Positions 3,608 to 11,622 of a DNA stretch of 12,550 nucleotides are shown here, piece after piece. Location: NCBI GenBank assembly GCA_017476305.1, contig JAFVAA010000786.1, positions 1-12,550 of the forward strand. The letters are read 5' to 3'. The translations under genes and the position numbers were made by a program. Numbering within the stretch: the stretch's first letter is position 1; every line of letters starts with the position of its first letter. Below the pieces are notes generated by a model. It was not told the DNA's origin. It saw only the letters and a program-made list of their open reading frames with translations, and did no database searches. Source of the stretch: Lachnospiraceae bacterium. GTDB taxonomy: Bacteria > Bacillota > Clostridia > Lachnospirales > Lachnospiraceae.

Positions 3608-5377
3608 TTAAATAATGAACTTTTTCACTTCATTCCCCAGATTATCTGTTGCCCTGAGATTGCTCTCGGACTGCTCCTTGTTCTGATTCAGATCCTCAGA
3701 AAGCTCGCCCACGCTTACTGTCACGCTCTCGATATTTCTGGTGCTCTCCTCGACTGCAGCCAGAATCTCAGACATGGCGACCTTGATCTTATCAATCTCT
3801 CCTGACAGATGATCTGCCTGCGTCATGCACTCCTCCATGACGTCATGGAAATTCTCAGCATCCTTGCTATACTGCGTTCCTGTCTCAATCAACTGGCCAT
3901 AGCCATATAAGGTATGCTCATTTAAGAAATCAAGCATACGCTCCGCTTCCATCGCCAGATCATGTACGGTCGAAAGCACTACCTCGCTGATCGTGCGGAT
4001 TTCCTCCGCACTCTCCGTCGTATTCTGGGAAAGCTTTCCAATCTCGCCCGCTACTACCGCAAAGCCCTTTCCTGCCTCTCCGGCTCTCGCCGCCTCTATG
4101 TTTGCATTCAGAGCCAAAAGCTCCGTCTGGGAAGATATCTCTAAAATCTTATCGGTCAGCTCGCCGATATTTTCCACCTGACGCGACTTTTCCATCTTTT
4201 CCTTTAGGGAAGCAGCAATCTCAGCCGCCATGATTTCAACTTCCTTTGTTTTTCCCTTCGTTTCTCCCACCAGTCCCGAAGTCTTTTGATGAATAGAAGA
4301 TGCAAGATCCGTACCATTCGCCACATTTTTATCCATCCGTTTCACATATTCATTCATGCGGCTCATTGCTTCGTCTACTTCCTGCACACTCGCCATCGTT
4401 TCCTGCATGGCAGCACTCATCTGCATGATATTATCCGAAATAACATGAATCTCACTATTCGACTTCTCTGCCGTATCACTGCTTAGATGAAGATAATGGT
4501 CTAACTGCTTTGTATTTTCAGAAATATTCGTAATCACGGTCCGGATATAATCTAAAAGAGAATTGATATTTCCTGCGATAGAACCCACTTCATCTCTGGA
4601 GCGGACATTGACCTTCTGTGTCAGATCACCATCCGTCTCCACAATATCCTTGATTTTCTTATTGACCTTTTTCACACTGTTCAAAATACCGCCGATAATA
4701 AACAGAATCAGAACCGAACAGATGACTACTAAAAGGATCGCAACCAAAATGACCTGCTTTTTCATATCAGAAATCGATTTTAACAGATTCTCCGCATCCG
4801 ACTCAATGCACACTGCTCCCACCATCTCGCCGGATCTCGTGGCGACCGGTGCCACCCCGACGATGACCTGCCTGCCATCAATCTTCCGGACGGATTTATA
4901 GGCAAACGGGATATCATTGTTCATCGCAACGAGTGTATTCAGGCTGTCAAATTCAGTAACCGCCTCTCCCGTTTCTTTTCCTGCACTTTCATCCTCTTTA
5001 ATATCCATCAGATAGCAGAGTGCTCCGGATTCATTTTTTCCTATGGTATAAATCCGATTCACTCCTACGCTGTCCACAATATTTTCAATGGAGTCATACA
5101 CGATCATAAAGCTGGTGGAATCTGCCCCATCTGTTCCGATCTTATCCATCGTGGCACCATCGATTCTTGCCTTCGCCATCGTCACCATGGATAATGCCCC
5201 CTGTGCAGCCGTATTCATACACTGCCTTCGAAATCCGTTTAAAATCAAAACACTTAGGACTGCAGCGATGATAATATTCGTACAAATCACCGGAATTAGG
5301 ATTTTAAAGCGTATCCCCAGACCTGCTTTTGTCCTCTCTGCCTTTTTCTTCTCCTTCTTTTCCTTCTCTTCCTTCAC
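3608..5377 (-). CDS. methyl-accepting chemotaxis protein with Cache-like sensor
   Basis: A 589-residue transmembrane chemoreceptor that controls the CheA kinase. A very basic/acidic N-terminus ([11 protein letters not shown]) precedes TM1 (about 25-47). An extracytoplasmic sensor of about 160 residues (48-207) has single-Cache character ([11 protein letters not shown], then [20 protein letters not shown]). TM2 (209-232), a HAMP domain (about 233-285) and a long coiled-coil signalling domain follow. The conserved hairpin tip is at 415-445 ([20 protein letters not shown], then [11 protein letters not shown]). There is no C-terminal CheR-tethering pentapeptide. The start is GTG at 5377-5375, supported by GGAGG seven bases upstream. 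The next gene on the strand is a sugar-binding lipoprotein, so attractant sensing through a binding protein is possible. No cheA, cheW or flagellar gene is visible, and the ligand is unknown. Confidence 0.92.
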
Positions 5378-5444
5378 TCTGACACCTCCACTTTCTTTAT
5401 TTCCGTAAATAATTCAACCACTTCATTCATTACTATCCACAGTA

Positions 5445-5521
5445 CAATGTCATTTAGTTAAGCCATAATGCAGCTATAGTAAGCATTACTTCCGTTCAAA
5501 ATACTTAACTAAATGACATTG
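5445..5521. repeat. 18-base perfect inverted repeat with inner hairpin (77 bases)
   Basis: CAATGTCATTTAGTTAAG at 5445-5462 is matched perfectly by its reverse complement at 5504-5521. The 41-base interior contains a second hairpin, TAATGC...GCATTA. The element lies in the 303-base region between the divergent chemoreceptor and S-protein genes, about 70 bases upstream of the chemoreceptor GTG. It resembles the two ends of a small non-autonomous insertion element brought together, but no clear target duplication flanks it. A regulatory cruciform or leader hairpin for the chemoreceptor mRNA is the alternative. Just to its right, AAGTGTAACACTT (5528-5540) is another short perfect palindrome before a T-rich run. 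Confidence 0.6.
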
Positions 5522-5588
5522 CGTGTGAAGTGTAACACTTATTATTTTTTTATTATAACAGCACTTGCCATGAAATGCTAGTTTTCTT

Positions 5589-5611
5589 TTTTATTATGGT
5601 GTATAATAAAA
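5589..5611 (+). promoter_or_regulatory. AT-rich palindrome overlapping a candidate -10 box
   Basis: Perfect 9-base arms TTTTATTAT (5589-5597) and ATAATAAAA (5603-5611) flank GGTGT. The right arm overlaps TATAAT (5602-5607), the best -10 candidate for the S-protein gene, whose ATG is 73 bases downstream. No good -35 box lies at the right distance, which would fit an activator-dependent promoter with the palindrome as a regulator site. The AT-only arms make chance or simple AT-richness possible. Confidence 0.35.
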
Positions 5612-5680
5612 TCATTATCGTTACTGTTATTCACAGTCATTTTTAAGCCATCATATAGCGGCAGGAAACGGAGGAGTCCA

Positions 5681-6292
5681 ATGAAAAATAATGAAGCAAA
5701 AAAATGGAAATGGCTATTTCCATTCACCCTCGGAAATATTCTTTTAATCTGCGTATGCGTCCTTTTCAATCTGCTCGGCAGATGGTTCGCGGGGAGCTTA
5801 GAACTTCCCCTGTGGTTAGACTGCATCGGCACGTTTCTTTCGGCAGTCTTTCTCGGACCACTTGGCGGGGCAGTCACAGGCGCACTGACCAATGTATTTC
5901 TAAACTTCCGGGCATCCGGTCAGATCTGGTTCGCCATCGTGAACATCGCCGGTGGAATCGCAGTCGGCAGACTTTTCCCACGCGACCGGAAAATTGCCGC
6001 CTTCCCGGTGATTGCAACCTCCATCTACGCTGCATTTATCATGGTCGTCATCTCCACACCGCTAAACATGCTTTTTAATCATGGCTACATCGGAAATCTG
6101 TGGGGAGATGCTCTCGTGGATATGCTCGCTCCCTATATCAGTGCCGTTCTGCCGCGCTGTTTCTTAGGGGAGCTTTTTATCAATGTTCCCGATAAGGTAC
6201 TTAGTATTTTAATTACCATGCTTATTCTGTACCTTGTCAGGAAGAAAAAAGTGAAAAAAACATTACCCACAGAAGCTTCCGCAAATCTATAG
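5681..6292 (+). CDS. ECF transporter S-component-like membrane protein
   Basis: A 203-residue polytopic membrane protein with the hydropathy and motifs of ECF S components: a basic N-terminus (KKWKW), a first helix at 13-33, then LPLWLDCIGT, FLGPLGGAVTGALTNVF, VNIAGGIAVGRLF, STPLNMLFNHGYIGNLWGDAL, INVPDKVLSILITMLILYLV and a basic C-terminal tail RKKKVKK. In the family such proteins capture a vitamin or similar small solute and pass it through a shared T/A1/A2 module. None of those partners is encoded here. Instead the gene is followed at 24 bases, in the same reading frame, by a giant hybrid sensor kinase, which suggests that this protein supplies ligand recognition or membrane input to the kinase (inference). 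The start is ATG at 5681 with GGAGG six bases upstream. The ligand cannot be deduced. Confidence 0.78.
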   Translation: MKNNEAKKWKWLFPFTLGNILLICVCVLFNLLGRWFAGSLELPLWLDCIGTFLSAVFLGPLGGAVTGALTNVFLNFRASGQIWFAIVNIAGGIAVGRLFPRDRKIAAFPVIATSIYAAFIMVVISTPLNMLFNHGYIGNLWGDALVDMLAPYISAVLPRCFLGELFINVPDKVLSILITMLILYLVRKKKVKKTLPTEASANL

Positions 6293-6303
6293 GCTTTTTT
6301 CTT
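6242..6303 (+). other. in-frame junction between S protein and kinase, with 10-base inverted repeat
   Basis: The S-protein frame ends at TAG (6290-6292) and continues without a frame change as A-F-F-L-C-V-G-S into the kinase ATG at 6317. AAGAAAAAAG (6242-6251) and CTTTTTTCTT (6294-6303) form a perfect but low-complexity inverted repeat that encloses the stop codon. No Shine-Dalgarno sequence precedes the ATG. Coupled re-initiation, stop readthrough or a recent nonsense mutation could each explain the arrangement. Confidence 0.5.
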
Positions 6304-6316
6304 ATGTGTCGGTTCG

Positions 6317-9300
6317 ATGCTATGCACCGGCACAGTGCTATGCGCCGCCTCTGTGCTTTTCGGCGAGCCCGTACATGCCTCTGCTCTGACAGACTTTAAT
6401 TCCGACTATGTCTCTACCGTTTACGGAGAAGAAAGCGGGCTTGCTTCCATAGAAATGAATACCATCGCGCAGACAAAGGACGGCTACATATGGTCCGGCT
6501 CTTATTCCGGTCTGTACCGCTTCAATGGGATAAAATTCGAAAAAATGAATCTAGATGACCGTATCAGTAATGTTACCTGGCTCTTCGAAGACAGTCTCGG
6601 AAAGCTTTGGATCGGCACGAACGACAGCGGCGTATTCTGCTATGAACCGGATACCAAAAAAGTAACTCTGTTTTCTACAAAAGAAGGACTTTCCTCGAAT
6701 TCCATCCGCTCCATCTGTGAGGGCGCAGACCGGACGATTTATGTCAGCACTGCAGCAGAGCTCTGCCGGATCACGAAAGATAAGACCGTCTTTGTATATA
6801 AAGAGCTTTCCCAAATCACCTGCGTATATAATCTAAGCTGCATCGGGGATGACATGATCACCGGCGTGACACAGAACGGGCTTTTATTCGTACTTCAGAA
6901 CGATGAGCTCCTTGCCACGAAGGAGTTTGAAAACACGCCCGAAAGTACCAATCCCCTTTCCTATACGGCTGCCGCCTGTGATTCCTCTAAAAATTTTCTC
7001 GCCGGCACCACAGGAGGAGTTTTCGAAAGACTGCATTTCGACGGAAAGAGCTTTCGCAGTAAGGGCATTATCCGGACAAATGATATATCCATGACCAACT
7101 TTTGCGTATATAACGAAAAGGCAAATGGATTTTTCATCGCAGCAGACAGCGGATTTGCCTTTGCAAATACCTCCGGAAATTTAGAGATTCTGACCAGAGA
7201 CAATTTCTCAAGTGCGATAACCCATGCCGTGGTAGATTATCAGGAAAATATCTGGTTCGTATCCTCCAAACAGGGAATTTTAAAGTTATCCGCAAATCCT
7301 TTTGTCAATATCCGAAAGAAGGGCAATCTCCCGGAGAGCATCCCAGGTGGCGCTGTAAATGCCACACTGCTTGACGGAAATATTCTCTACATCGGAACAG
7401 ATAGCGGCATTTACACGATAAATACAGAAGACAATACTCTCGTGGAAACAAAATATGCAGCACTCCTGGAAAGCCTTTCCGGCGAAAGAATCCGTCACAT
7501 TATGATGGACAGTACAAGAACCCTCTGGGCAAGCACCTACGGGGAAATCGGACTGGCAAGCATGTCTGCTGACGGAACATATACCCACTACAGCAAAACC
7601 AATTCCAGCCTTTTAGGAAGCCGTTTTCGTTTTACGCTGGAATTAAAGAACGGAGATATCGCTGCTTTTTCCACAGATGGAATCAACTTTCTCCACAAAG
7701 GCAAGGTCATAAAAACCATCGGTGCTGCGGATGGACTTTCCGTACCGCAAACCCTTTCTGCAGCAGAAAGAGAGGATGGCAGCCTTCTCGTCGGCTCGGA
7801 TGGCGGCGGGATTTATATTGTAAAGGACGGGAATATCACAGACACCATTGACGCGGAAGACGGTCTAAAGTCTCTTATCGTTTTAAAGATTGTCCCATGC
7901 GGGGATGGCTGGTTCTATGTTACCAGCAACGGCATTTACTACGACAACGGGAAAGATTCTATTAAGAAGCTGGAAAATTTCCCATATGCAAATAATTACG
8001 ATATCTACATTACAGAGGACGGTGCTGCATGGATTACCGGCAGTGCGGGTATCTATGTAACGAATGTAAAAAAGATGATAAAGGATAAAAAATATCAATA
8101 TGTCCTTTTAAACCGGAAATGGGGACTGGATACCACCTTTACCGCAAATGCATGGAACAGTGCCTCTGGCGACGATTTTTTCCTATGCTGTACGGATGGT
8201 GTCCGTAAAATCAATACAAAGACCTATCATGATTTTAACCGGAATTACAATATTTCCATTTATTCCTTTTTACATAATGAGAAGAAAAATGTTCCATGGA
8301 AAGACCGGAAATATGTCATTCCTGCAGGAGAAGGGACGCTGCAGATCCATCCCGTGATATTGAACTACACGATGTCGGATCCACTGGTATCCATTTCTGT
8401 AGATGGCATGAAAAAACTATCACTAAAGGCACACCAATCGGAGCTTCCGGAAATGTATGTAAATGATTTTCCATATGGTGACTATATCCTGCATGTCAGA
8501 GTCATCAATGAAATTGACGGAAGCATCCTAAAGGAGGCATCCTTTCCGATTCATAAGTCTTCCAGACTTTATGAGCATAATTATTTTAAAATCTACCTGC
8601 TCTTCGTCTGCGTCATGCTCATCGCCTTCATCGCATGGCTGGTCGCAGAAATGAGCAATATGGCAGTGATCAACAGACAATACGACCAGATTCGCGAGGC
8701 AAAGGAGGAAGCCGAATACGCCAATCAGGCAAAGTCCAAGTTTCTCGCAAATATGTCGCACGAAATCCGGACGCCGATTAATGCGGTACTCGGTATGGAT
8801 GAAATGATTTTAAGAGAAAGCACCGAGCCGGATATCAGAGGATATGCAGCAGATATTTTCACAGCAGGAAATACACTGCTCTCCCTGATCAATGACATTT
8901 TAGATTCCTCAAAAATCGAATCCGGAAAAATGGAGATCGTACCGGTGGAATATGAGCTTTCCACCCTCCTAAGAGATCTGGTCAATATGATTCAGGGAAG
9001 GGCACAGGCAAAGGATTTGATTTTAGAGGTTGAAGTAAAGGAAAGTCTGCCGGTAAAGCTTTTCGGTGATGATGTCCGAATCAGACAGGTCATTACGAAT
9101 ATCTTAACCAATGCGGTCAAATATACGCCGTCCGGTACGGTCTGGTTCCGGGTAAACGGAGAGATGGACGGAGAAGATGCGATTCTTCATTTCGAAGTAG
9201 AGGATACCGGTATCGGAATCAAGGAAGAGGATATGCCGAAGCTCTTTGAGGAATTTCAGAGGATTGAGGAAAGCAGAAACCGGAACATAGAAGGGACGGG

Positions 9301-10543
9301 GCTTGGCATGAATATTACCATCCAGCTCTTGGCACTCATGGGAAGTAAGCTGCAGGTAAAAAGCGTGTACGGAAAGGGTTCCACCTTTTACTTTGATCTC
9401 AGGCAAAGGGTCATGGAAAACACGCCAATCGGTAACTTTAATGAAATGCTTAAACACTCCGCAGACAGCTATACCTATGAGGGCGGATTTCAGGCTCCAA
9501 ATGCCAAGGTTTTGGTCGTAGACGATAATGCCACGAACCGGAAGGTATTCCGCAGTCTTTTAAAGATTACGAAGATTCAGGTCTCTGAGGCAGGAAGCGG
9601 CAAAGAGGCACTTGACCTCGTAGAAAATACAGACTTTGACATGATCTTTATGGATCACATGATGCCGGATATGGATGGTGTGGAAACCATGCAGCGGATG
9701 CGGCAGATGGAGCGTTTAAAAGAGGTTCCGATCTATGTCCTGACTGCAAATGCCGTAACCGGTGCGAAGGAGCAGTATTTAGAGCTTGGATTCGACGGCT
9801 TTATTTCGAAACCGATTGTTTCGGAAAAGCTGGAAAACGCACTAAAGGACGAACTGCCGGAGGAGCTTTTAGAGCCACTCGACGAAGCTGCTTTAGAAAG
9901 GACATCGGAGAAAAAAGCGGCATTCTCCATAGACGATTATCCTGTAGTCGATGGTCTGGACTGGAGCTATGCACAGATGCACCTGCCGGAGGAGGAGCTT
10001 CTTATCTCTACGGTAAAAGATTTTTATGAGGTACTTCTCATACAGGCAGATAAGCTTCAGGAAATGTACCAGGCAGTCGTAAAGGAGCCGTCCGGTGAAC
10101 CGATGACTGCCTACCGCATTCAGGTGCATGCGATGAAAAGTGTCGCTGCCACGATAGGAATCGTACCCTTAGCGGGTATGGCAAAGATGTTAGAGTACGC
10201 TGCGAGAGAGGAGGACTTTGATACCATTCTCTCCCTGCATGATACCTTTATCAGGGAATGGAAATCCTACCGGGAAAAGCTTACCGGAGTATTCGGAACC
10301 GGTACAGAGGAAACCGGAAGGGCAGAGGCAGATAAAGGTATGCTCCTCGCCATGTTCTCCATGCTTCGGCCTGCAATTGATGATTTTGATTTAGATACCG
10401 TCGATGAGATTTTAGAAAAGCTAAAATCCTATCGCTATCCGGAAAAAGTAGAGGAAAAAATGCCGGAGCTGATTGCAGCCGTAAAGGAAATGGAAGCCGA
10501 GGAAGCGGACAGGATCATGGCAGAGATGGAGCAGGTAATGTAG
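6317..10543 (+). CDS. propeller-type hybrid sensor histidine kinase (HK-REC-Hpt)
   Basis: A 1408-residue membrane sensor for a His-Asp-His-Asp phosphorelay. The N-terminus is a signal sequence ending near PVHASA (residue 23). The extracytoplasmic part (about 24-670) is built of Reg_prop beta-propeller repeats, with blades such as TKDGYIWSGSYSGLYRFNG and DSLGKLWIGTNDSGVF. A Y_Y_Y-like domain (about 680-750) and one membrane helix (about 759-779) follow. The cytoplasmic part holds a coiled coil, HisKA with MSHEIRTP (His815), HATPase with N932 in NILTNAVKYT, DTGIGI at 963 and GTGLGM at 993, a receiver (DD 1069-1070, phospho-Asp1113, Lys1165), an Hpt domain with VHAMKS (His1271) and a helical tail of unknown role (about 1335-1408). 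This resembles the one-protein hybrid systems of gut bacteria that sense glycan breakdown products, but it lacks the AraC-type output of the Bacteroides forms. The ATG lacks a ribosome site and its signal peptide has no basic n-region, so the start is uncertain. Confidence 0.92.
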   Translation: MLCTGTVLCAASVLFGEPVHASALTDFNSDYVSTVYGEESGLASIEMNTIAQTKDGYIWSGSYSGLYRFNGIKFEKMNLDDRISNVTWLFEDSLGKLWIGTNDSGVFCYEPDTKKVTLFSTKEGLSSNSIRSICEGADRTIYVSTAAELCRITKDKTVFVYKELSQITCVYNLSCIGDDMITGVTQNGLLFVLQNDELLATKEFENTPESTNPLSYTAAACDSSKNFLAGTTGGVFERLHFDGKSFRSKGIIRTNDISMTNFCVYNEKANGFFIAADSGFAFANTSGNLEILTRDNFSSAITHAVVDYQENIWFVSSKQGILKLSANPFVNIRKKGNLPESIPGGAVNATLLDGNILYIGTDSGIYTINTEDNTLVETKYAALLESLSGERIRHIMMDSTRTLWASTYGEIGLASMSADGTYTHYSKTNSSLLGSRFRFTLELKNGDIAAFSTDGINFLHKGKVIKTIGAADGLSVPQTLSAAEREDGSLLVGSDGGGIYIVKDGNITDTIDAEDGLKSLIVLKIVPCGDGWFYVTSNGIYYDNGKDSIKKLENFPYANNYDIYITEDGAAWITGSAGIYVTNVKKMIKDKKYQYVLLNRKWGLDTTFTANAWNSASGDDFFLCCTDGVRKINTKTYHDFNRNYNISIYSFLHNEKKNVPWKDRKYVIPAGEGTLQIHPVILNYTMSDPLVSISVDGMKKLSLKAHQSELPEMYVNDFPYGDYILHVRVINEIDGSILKEASFPIHKSSRLYEHNYFKIYLLFVCVMLIAFIAWLVAEMSNMAVINRQYDQIREAKEEAEYANQAKSKFLANMSHEIRTPINAVLGMDEMILRESTEPDIRGYAADIFTAGNTLLSLINDILDSSKIESGKMEIVPVEYELSTLLRDLVNMIQGRAQAKDLILEVEVKESLPVKLFGDDVRIRQVITNILTNAVKYTPSGTVWFRVNGEMDGEDAILHFEVEDTGIGIKEEDMPKLFEEFQRIEESRNRNIEGTGLGMNITIQLLALMGSKLQVKSVYGKGSTFYFDLRQRVMENTPIGNFNEMLKHSADSYTYEGGFQAPNAKVLVVDDNATNRKVFRSLLKITKIQVSEAGSGKEALDLVENTDFDMIFMDHMMPDMDGVETMQRMRQMERLKEVPIYVLTANAVTGAKEQYLELGFDGFISKPIVSEKLENALKDELPEELLEPLDEAALERTSEKKAAFSIDDYPVVDGLDWSYAQMHLPEEELLISTVKDFYEVLLIQADKLQEMYQAVVKEPSGEPMTAYRIQVHAMKSVAATIGIVPLAGMAKMLEYAAREEDFDTILSLHDTFIREWKSYREKLTGVFGTGTEETGRAEADKGMLLAMFSMLRPAIDDFDLDTVDEILEKLKSYRYPEKVEEKMPELIAAVKEMEAEEADRIMAEMEQVM

Positions 10544-10705: not shown

Positions 10706-10854
10706 AAAGAGGTAACCGGTCTATCAGGACGAACCATTGATATAAAAAACGGCAATCCGGTACTTATCGGAAAGCCAATACAGCACTTTATGTCTACGCA
10801 CTGCTGGCACAAGGTCGCTCTATACGTAAACGCAGTGCAGAAATGAGGAGTATT
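10706..10854 (+). other. long untranslated leader of the response regulator gene, function unknown
   Basis: About 150 bases lie between the predicted transcription start and the ATG. The segment holds GCACTGC (10798-10804) and its complement GCAGTGC (10832-10838), a 7-base stem that ends just before the AGGAG ribosome site, and an ACCGG/CCGGT pair further upstream. The regulator frame is also open through 10741-10854 with peptide-like content (GTYRKANTALYVYALLAQGR) but has no good start there, so a decayed small gene is another reading. It does not match any riboswitch consensus I can recall. Confidence 0.35.
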
Positions 10855-11622
10855 ATGAAAACAGTAATCATCATTGGAAAAATGAACAAATTAATGAAGG
10901 ATTTAAATGACTATTTGAAAATTTATTTTCAAGTGCAGATCTGCGCAGATGATATCAATAATGCGGAGGGCATGCTGAAGGTCGTAGAACCTGACCTCAT
11001 TATGATAAATCTTATGGGCTATACTGCCGGGGAGCGGGATTTATTTAAAACCATCCAGATCAATTTCCCGACATTCCCGGTCATCACAATCGGTACCGAA
11101 GCAGAACAGAAGATTTTCGCGGACTTTTATTCCGGCGTGCAGTTCGAAAACCTCGTGCGTCCTTTAGAAAACACGGTAATCCTTTCTGCTATCTGCAAAC
11201 GTCTCGGCATCTCCGAGCAGGAAGTAAAGGAAAATGCAAATCTGCCAAAGGACAACCGCCCGAAGATTCTGGCGGTAGATGATAATATGTCAATCCTGCG
11301 AAACATTAAAAGTATTTTGGAAGAAAAATATAATGTTTCGCTCGCCAACTCCGGCATGAAAGCCATGAACATGATCGGAAAGAGCCGTCCGGATCTCATA
11401 CTGCTGGATTACGAAATGCCGGTCGTGGACGGGAAGCAGACTCTGGAAATGATCCGCGCGGACGAAGACATCAAAGATATTCCGGTCATCTTTTTGACCG
11501 GAGTGAATGACGAAAATCATATCCGGGCTGTTTTGGCACTGAAACCGGCGAGATATCTTTTAAAGCCTGTGATTCCGGAGAAGGTGATAGATGCGATAGA
11601 GACTGTGTTAAAAAATAAATAA
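10855..11622 (+). CDS. response regulator: pseudo-receiver plus intact receiver
   Basis: A 255-residue cytoplasmic protein with two CheY-like halves and no DNA-binding or enzyme domain. The N-terminal half (about 1-118) keeps the alternating strand/helix pattern (KTVIIIGK, DLIMINLMGY, FPVITIGT, LVRPLENTV) but has no acidic pair, and Asn52 stands where the phospho-Asp should be, so it cannot be phosphorylated in the usual way. The C-terminal half (about 135-255) is a complete receiver with VDDN (Asp142-143), LLDYEMP (Asp185), FLTG (Thr215) and LLKPV (Lys237). It is the likely terminal phospho-acceptor for the Hpt domain of the kinase just upstream, acting through protein contacts. ATG at 10855 is chosen because AGGAG lies four bases upstream; the in-frame ATG at 10843 precedes that site. 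It has its own promoter. Confidence 0.85.
   Translation: MKTVIIIGKMNKLMKDLNDYLKIYFQVQICADDINNAEGMLKVVEPDLIMINLMGYTAGERDLFKTIQINFPTFPVITIGTEAEQKIFADFYSGVQFENLVRPLENTVILSAICKRLGISEQEVKENANLPKDNRPKILAVDDNMSILRNIKSILEEKYNVSLANSGMKAMNMIGKSRPDLILLDYEMPVVDGKQTLEMIRADEDIKDIPVIFLTGVNDENHIRAVLALKPARYLLKPVIPEKVIDAIETVLKNK

Follow-up and report, generated by a model that had tools for sequence, protein, structure and literature searches.

An in-frame TAG probably splits a gene of a fused S-component-like sensor kinase family in a Lachnospiraceae bacterium

Organization of the locus

The analyzed window of 12,550 nucleotides is the whole of contig C696 of a Lachnospiraceae metagenome-assembled genome (MAG, G000), which comprises 957 contigs and is 79% complete. 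It contains a gene for an S-component-like membrane domain (S) followed by a gene for a hybrid histidine kinase (K), both in the same reading frame (Table 1). As the initial annotation had stated, the TAG that closes the first gene is followed in frame by eight sense codons (AFFLCVGS) and then by the ATG of the kinase. This TAG is the only internal stop between positions 5681 and 10540, and the kinase frame itself ends with a TAG at 10541-10543. A shared frame would on its own be weak evidence, as it has a chance of one in three, and gains its meaning from the homologues described below. The downstream receiver-domain gene likely starts at position 10855, where the Shine-Dalgarno pairing is -8.1 kcal/mol, and its product is a possible partner of the kinase.

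Table 1. Features of the S domain and kinase locus
Feature	Position	Strand	Basis
Shine-Dalgarno sequence of the S gene, GGAGGAG	5670..5676	+	Pairing -9.5 kcal/mol
S-component-like membrane domain, 203 aa, TAG-terminated	5681..6292	+	ORF list; profiles; predicted fold
Inverted repeat of 10 bp around the stop, arms 6242-6251 / 6294-6303	6242..6303	+	Sequence
Last helix predicted (model residues 200-227), with the TAG at residue 204 inside it	6278..6361	+	Structure model
In-frame TAG	6290..6292	+	Sequence; open in 79 of 80 relatives (best 80 of 113)
Sense gap between TAG and kinase ATG, 24 nt	6293..6316	+	Sequence
Hybrid kinase, 1408 aa: Reg_prop propeller, HisKA, HATPase_c and receiver	6317..10543	+	ORF; profiles
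ASA downstream of the junction helix, resembling a signal peptidase I site	6377..6385	+	Motif comparison
Receiver-domain protein, downstream	10843..11622	+	ORF; profiles

Two further elements were observed in the window. A RelA/SpoT-family protein of 494 aa, encoded on the minus strand (630-2114), covers profile positions 1-448 of 687; it looks naturally short, because a second in-frame stop occurs within 18 codons after its TAG. Upstream of the S gene, at 5430-5540, lies an element of ~95 bp with long inverted repeats (CAATGTCATTTAGTTAAG ... CTTAACTAAATGACATTG). It has 18 more partial matches with 72-94% identity within the same genome and, judged from its sequence, looks like a MITE-type intergenic repeat.

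Start signals of the kinase

The kinase lacks the start signals of a separate gene. Pairing energies of Shine-Dalgarno sequences were computed against a 16S tail. The best pairing at the kinase ATG is -2.6 kcal/mol compared to -9.5 kcal/mol at the S gene, and the alternative in-frame starts at 6335, 6353 and 6455 show -1.7, -1.7 and -3.8 kcal/mol, respectively. Weak Shine-Dalgarno sequences also occur elsewhere, as 9% of 174 long ORFs of the MAG are no better than -2.5 kcal/mol (first 60 codons). Two other genes of the window are weak at the first ATG (-1.7 and -0.6) but good at the next ATG (-8.1 and -12.1); unlike these, the kinase has no good next start. The N-terminus of the kinase, MLCTGTVLCAASVLFGEPVHASA, harbors no K or R and hence no basic n-region, and the basic stretch RKKKVKK is located before the stop. 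In the structure model, the hydrophobic helix is extended through the gap, with a helix predicted, at lower confidence (pLDDT blocks of 68-73), for residues 200-227 that spans the stop. The lack of a Shine-Dalgarno sequence and of a basic n-region and the location of the basic stretch had been noted in the initial annotation and were borne out.

The 10-base inverted repeat described there as enclosing the stop is present, but it is not exceptional. When the region was shuffled 500 times, 8 of the resulting sequences contained a comparable repeat, as did 30 of 247 segments of 221 bases from the contig, and the repeat was therefore rejected as a recoding signal. A scan of positions 5300-6500 against Rfam gave zero matches at the gathering score.

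Fold of the S domain and comparison with known systems

The S domain scored 21.6 bits against PF12822, below the cut-off of 30.7, and 77.8 bits (E 7.7e-22) against NF045596 (CD3073 family ECF transporter S component), below the equivalog cut-off of 180 bits. The model of residues 1-260 (pLDDT 85.4) points to the fold of ECF S components. Ranks 1-9 in Foldseek were S components or ECF complexes with probabilities of 0.99-1.00 and TM-scores by target of 0.57-0.70, at E-values of 0.018-0.23 and with no match at E <=0.001; this includes rank 5 (4huq_S), titled 'a transporter', which we take to belong to this group. The best fold matches were FolT, RibU and ThiT. Two relatives that belong to the CD3073 family, L054 and L055, are stand-alone proteins encoded near two ECF ATPase genes each and are likely transporter relatives of the sensor domain. 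In the family of the window, in contrast, S is fused to a propeller, and no ECF ATPase was found among the seven ORFs of the window scanned by profile. An AXXXA motif in helix 1 is absent from the window and occurs in 14 of the best 80 of 113 genome_contigs loci; L054 and L055, which are ECF-linked, also lack it at their start, so that the motif is uninformative about ECF coupling.

Hybrid two-component systems with Reg_prop sensors (HTCS) are found in Bacteroides. Like these, the locus combines propeller, HisKA, HATPase and receiver on a single chain. Unlike these, the fused relatives harbor an N-terminal S domain, and no C-terminal AraC domain was found by profile scan. In the 5TMR-LYT receptors, histidine kinases and GGDEF proteins likewise use the S-component fold as their membrane part, as described by Partipilo and Slotboom (2024, PMC11109136). 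Relatives in the fused family carry GGDEF as well (PF00990; best 120 of 495 protein hits). However, the 5TMR-LYT fold is linked to cytosolic domains according to that text (PMC11109136), whereas an additional helix and the propeller intervene here, and the S domain showed no match to PF07694. The word 'propeller' is absent from the main text of PMC11109136. The S-fold/propeller/kinase architecture is not named among the literature matches listed, of which this article alone was relevant; this does not prove its absence.

Fused relatives

The S domain was searched in 61 genomes, including that of the window, and 19 of them gave matches. Of 20 stretches examined, 14 encode S and propeller in a single open frame. 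Among these 14, L047 comes from the same genome as the window and represents another fused copy, which is distant (~28% identity) and cut by a contig end. In four stretches (L040, L041, L043 and L048) the two parts are split into genes in different frames, and two (L054 and L055) contain S without a propeller kinase. The search of genome_contigs matched 148 stretches, 113 of which are relatives. Among the best 80 of these 113, S and propeller form one unstopped frame in 79, and the remaining locus runs off its contig; for several of these relatives the contig ends before the output domain. At the protein level, the S-domain signature was present in 119 of the best 120 of 495 hits when whole chains were scanned, the sole exception being P0002, the kinase half of the same species. 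The initial annotation had suggested examining homologues for the TAG: in the 79 loci the stop is absent and the fusion is genuine. Together with the 119 proteins, this supports its proposal that the two genes are halves of one fusion interrupted by a nonsense codon.

The nearest relative, RUG14105, is fused and shares 75% identity in S and 73% in K over 778 aa, followed by RUG14099, also fused, with 68% in S and 64% in K over 207 aa. The available sequence of both does not reach the kinase domain, and the full fusion is present in P0001 (1600 aa, 68% over the first 500 residues). By homology and domain order, the window thus belongs to a family of fused S-domain/propeller/hybrid kinases, from which it departs by the one TAG within its frame. 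Judged by record titles, the fused family occurs in Lachnospiraceae, Oscillospiraceae and other Clostridia, and many of the named relatives are of ruminant origin. The bacterium of the window is itself uncultured and probably a member of the rumen Lachnospiraceae.

The architecture varies among relatives. P0068, a protein of 1993 aa, carries a kinase-like part ahead of the S domain and propeller, so that its S domain lies further in. In the fused relative L093:6001-12573 at least 2000 codons follow the S domain, and the frame is still open where the stretch ends. Butyrivibrio sp. FCS014 possesses two copies with identical S domains (L156 and L154), and the frame ends 728 codons after S in one and 1073 in the other.

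Split relatives and phylogeny

The kinases of the four split relatives have Shine-Dalgarno pairings of -11.0, -12.7, -12.8 and -14.0 kcal/mol, compared to -2.6 kcal/mol in the window, and a reading of their DNA (n=4) revealed a basic n-region at the start of the signal peptide. Homologues with the genes in different frames, a clear ribosome binding site and a complete signal peptide had been named in the initial annotation as the finding that would speak against a common gene. Such homologues do exist, but only these four, and they are more distant from the window (~34% identity in S).

In the tree of S domains, L080 and P0001 together form the sister group of the window and L081 is the outgroup (support 100/97 and 99/97); all three are fused. 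As the window nests among fused genes, the fused state is ancestral and the stop is derived. Well-supported branches force at least four changes between the fused and the split state, the window counted. This count was based on 8 split and 81 fused rows with the window labelled split; P0122, L129 and L156 were left out, and P0123, P0124 and P0127 were labelled split from protein length alone. P0122 (191 aa) consists of an S domain only. Its sequence follows that of the fused L089 as far as the junction, beyond which the two differ, probably by a one-base shift relative to L089 as judged from the sequences. It represents a second break at the same junction, either real or an artefact.

Constraint on the interrupted gene

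Seventy proteins of 1500-1720 aa, taken from the best 120 of 495 hits, were compared with the window and L036. Across these 72 rows there are 161 near-invariant columns, and the window gene deviates at none of them, which also holds for 26 of the 71 other rows. Relative-rate comparisons assigned more unique changes to P0001 or L036 than to the window in 27 of 30 cases; the three comparisons with more changes in the window (39 v 36, 27 v 18 and 22 v 20) are not strong. With respect to L036, dN is 0.18 in S and 0.18 in the propeller, and dS is 1.9 or saturated. As there is no sign of decay, the stop appears to be recent or tolerated. Continued production of the kinase would likewise be compatible with the strong constraint on K.

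Junction helix and putative signal peptidase site

Junctions of fused relatives were compared after removal of those without both anchor motifs and of repeats of the same segment. A motif [AV]xA is located just past the hydrophobic core in 115 of 139 distinct fused junctions (shuffled mean 80, maximum 96), and a net positive charge precedes the hydrophobic segment in 112 of the 139. Past the next helix before the kinase (helix 8), used as a control, [AV]xA occurs in 1 of 51 segments at a shuffled mean of 23; these segments are strongly conserved, so that the control is not independent. A relaxed signal peptidase motif was uninformative, being present in 139 of 139 junctions compared to a shuffled mean of 132. 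At the level of sequence, the conserved [AV]xA suggests an internal, perhaps cleavable, signal peptide in the fused family. LtaS-type polytopic proteins are processed after an AXA motif, which follows the transmembrane part and precedes the extracellular domain, as reported in PMC3089822. The position is comparable here, whereas cleavage is only predicted and a further helix and the kinase lie beyond the extracellular part.

We tentatively consider that the whole family may consist of polyprotein receptors, in which the junction helix would be cut by signal peptidase I at [AV]xA and the S domain and the propeller kinase would act as two chains. Such processing would explain the repeated interchange between fused and split genes (at least four times) as well as the tolerance of a stop at exactly this junction in the window.

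The same interchange, the constraint on the kinase and the possibility that the halves act as separate chains anyway, suggested by the [AV]xA site, would also agree with a working two-gene operon, in which the kinase is made by re-initiation at the ATG at 6317 much as in the split relatives. However, the start of the kinase has neither a Shine-Dalgarno sequence nor a basic n-region. Translationally coupled pairs overlap or are separated by a very short gap and have a Shine-Dalgarno sequence, whereas the window has a gap of 24 nt and a pairing of -2.6 kcal/mol. In the reporter results given in PMC10666635, gaps of ~20 nt almost abolished re-initiation in three gene pairs of H. volcanii and three of E. 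coli. Removal of the Shine-Dalgarno sequence substantially lowered re-initiation in four of five E. coli pairs tested and left one unaffected, according to PMC6728339. Coupled re-initiation, one of the options raised initially, is therefore improbable given the gap and the absent Shine-Dalgarno sequence.

Origin of the stop

Recoding of UAG was considered because prfA (RF1) of the MAG carries an in-frame TAG (L183:831-1898, G000:C92). Read-through or recoding would yield the full fusion and would match the junction helix predicted across the stop. A hexamer scan of 468,065 bases detected 35 stops flanked on either side by coding-like DNA (19 TAG, 12 TAA and 4 TGA), so that TAG accounts for 19 of 35 compared to 55 of 200 ends of long ORFs. 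However, inspection by eye placed only ~10 of the 35 inside genes and most others between neighbours, and the set thus includes ordinary neighbouring genes. Furthermore, TAA also interrupts genes (rseP and ispG), the genes for the kinase and for RelA both end in TAG and have additional in-frame stops no more than 18 codons downstream, and the TAG in prfA lies in an error-like cluster while P0128 is an intact RF1 from this species. UAG recoding was rejected on these grounds and is unsupported for this genome. Pyrrolysine was likewise rejected, as the three PylS matches were all below the cut-off. The read-through proposed as an option in the initial annotation thus has little support, and we regard it as highly improbable.

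The main rival is an assembly error: the metagenome assembly is of low quality, the TAG would be a wrong base, and the organism would possess an intact fused gene. Internal stops were found in dxr (TAG), rseP (TAA), ispG (TAA), prfA (TAG) and a corrinoid activase (TAG) of G000, and both halves of all five, searched apart, match one family. With at least five other conserved genes bearing in-frame stops, a base error at 6290-6292 is a real possibility. In prfA the stop lies within a stretch of 12 codons in which four residues are changed, each of them conserved throughout 16 of 16 relatives from the genus. P0128, encoded on another contig, is intact and otherwise identical, differing at exactly four of 355 residues; the prfA stop is thus probably an assembly error. 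The genes dxr, rseP and ispG are neighbours on one 5.8-kb contig (L242:1019-4878, G000:C280), and each is interrupted.

For the stop of the window, in contrast, both halves also occur on other contigs: P0002 (1408 aa) differs in one residue (E904D) and lies on a contig of 13,625 bp, and P0121 (203 aa) is identical and lies on a contig of 14,360 bp. As they show the same split, the stop is probably real, although both might derive from the same reads. No fused protein with more than 68% identity was found among the best 120 of 495 hits, and the gene shows no deviation at the near-invariant columns, although this holds for 26 of 71 other rows likewise. An assembly error is therefore rather unlikely as the cause of this stop, and single-base oddities of the MAG need read support.

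The locus is thus probably one gene of the fused sensor family, split by an in-frame TAG that arose in the lineage of the window, most likely by a recent breaking mutation rather than by a new mode of decoding. In the topology that we infer, proteins of the family begin with an ECF-S-component-like membrane domain, from which a basic linker leads to a helix with a signal-peptidase-like site; the two-component-regulator propeller that follows would be extracytoplasmic, and another helix would join it to the hybrid histidine kinase. The single TAG would have arisen in the unconserved linker just ahead of the junction helix and would end translation after the S domain. This would leave the kinase without a start supported by a Shine-Dalgarno sequence and without a basic n-region, so that probably little or no kinase is produced; the stop would then be a real and recent allele that lowers kinase output.

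As a mechanism the stop itself is ordinary, whether a sensor gene was lost or split or the assembly is in error, and the part worth testing is the proposed internal signal peptide. With an S-component fold ahead of a propeller, the family is also suited to asking if a vitamin-transporter fold can serve as a sensor subunit in trans.
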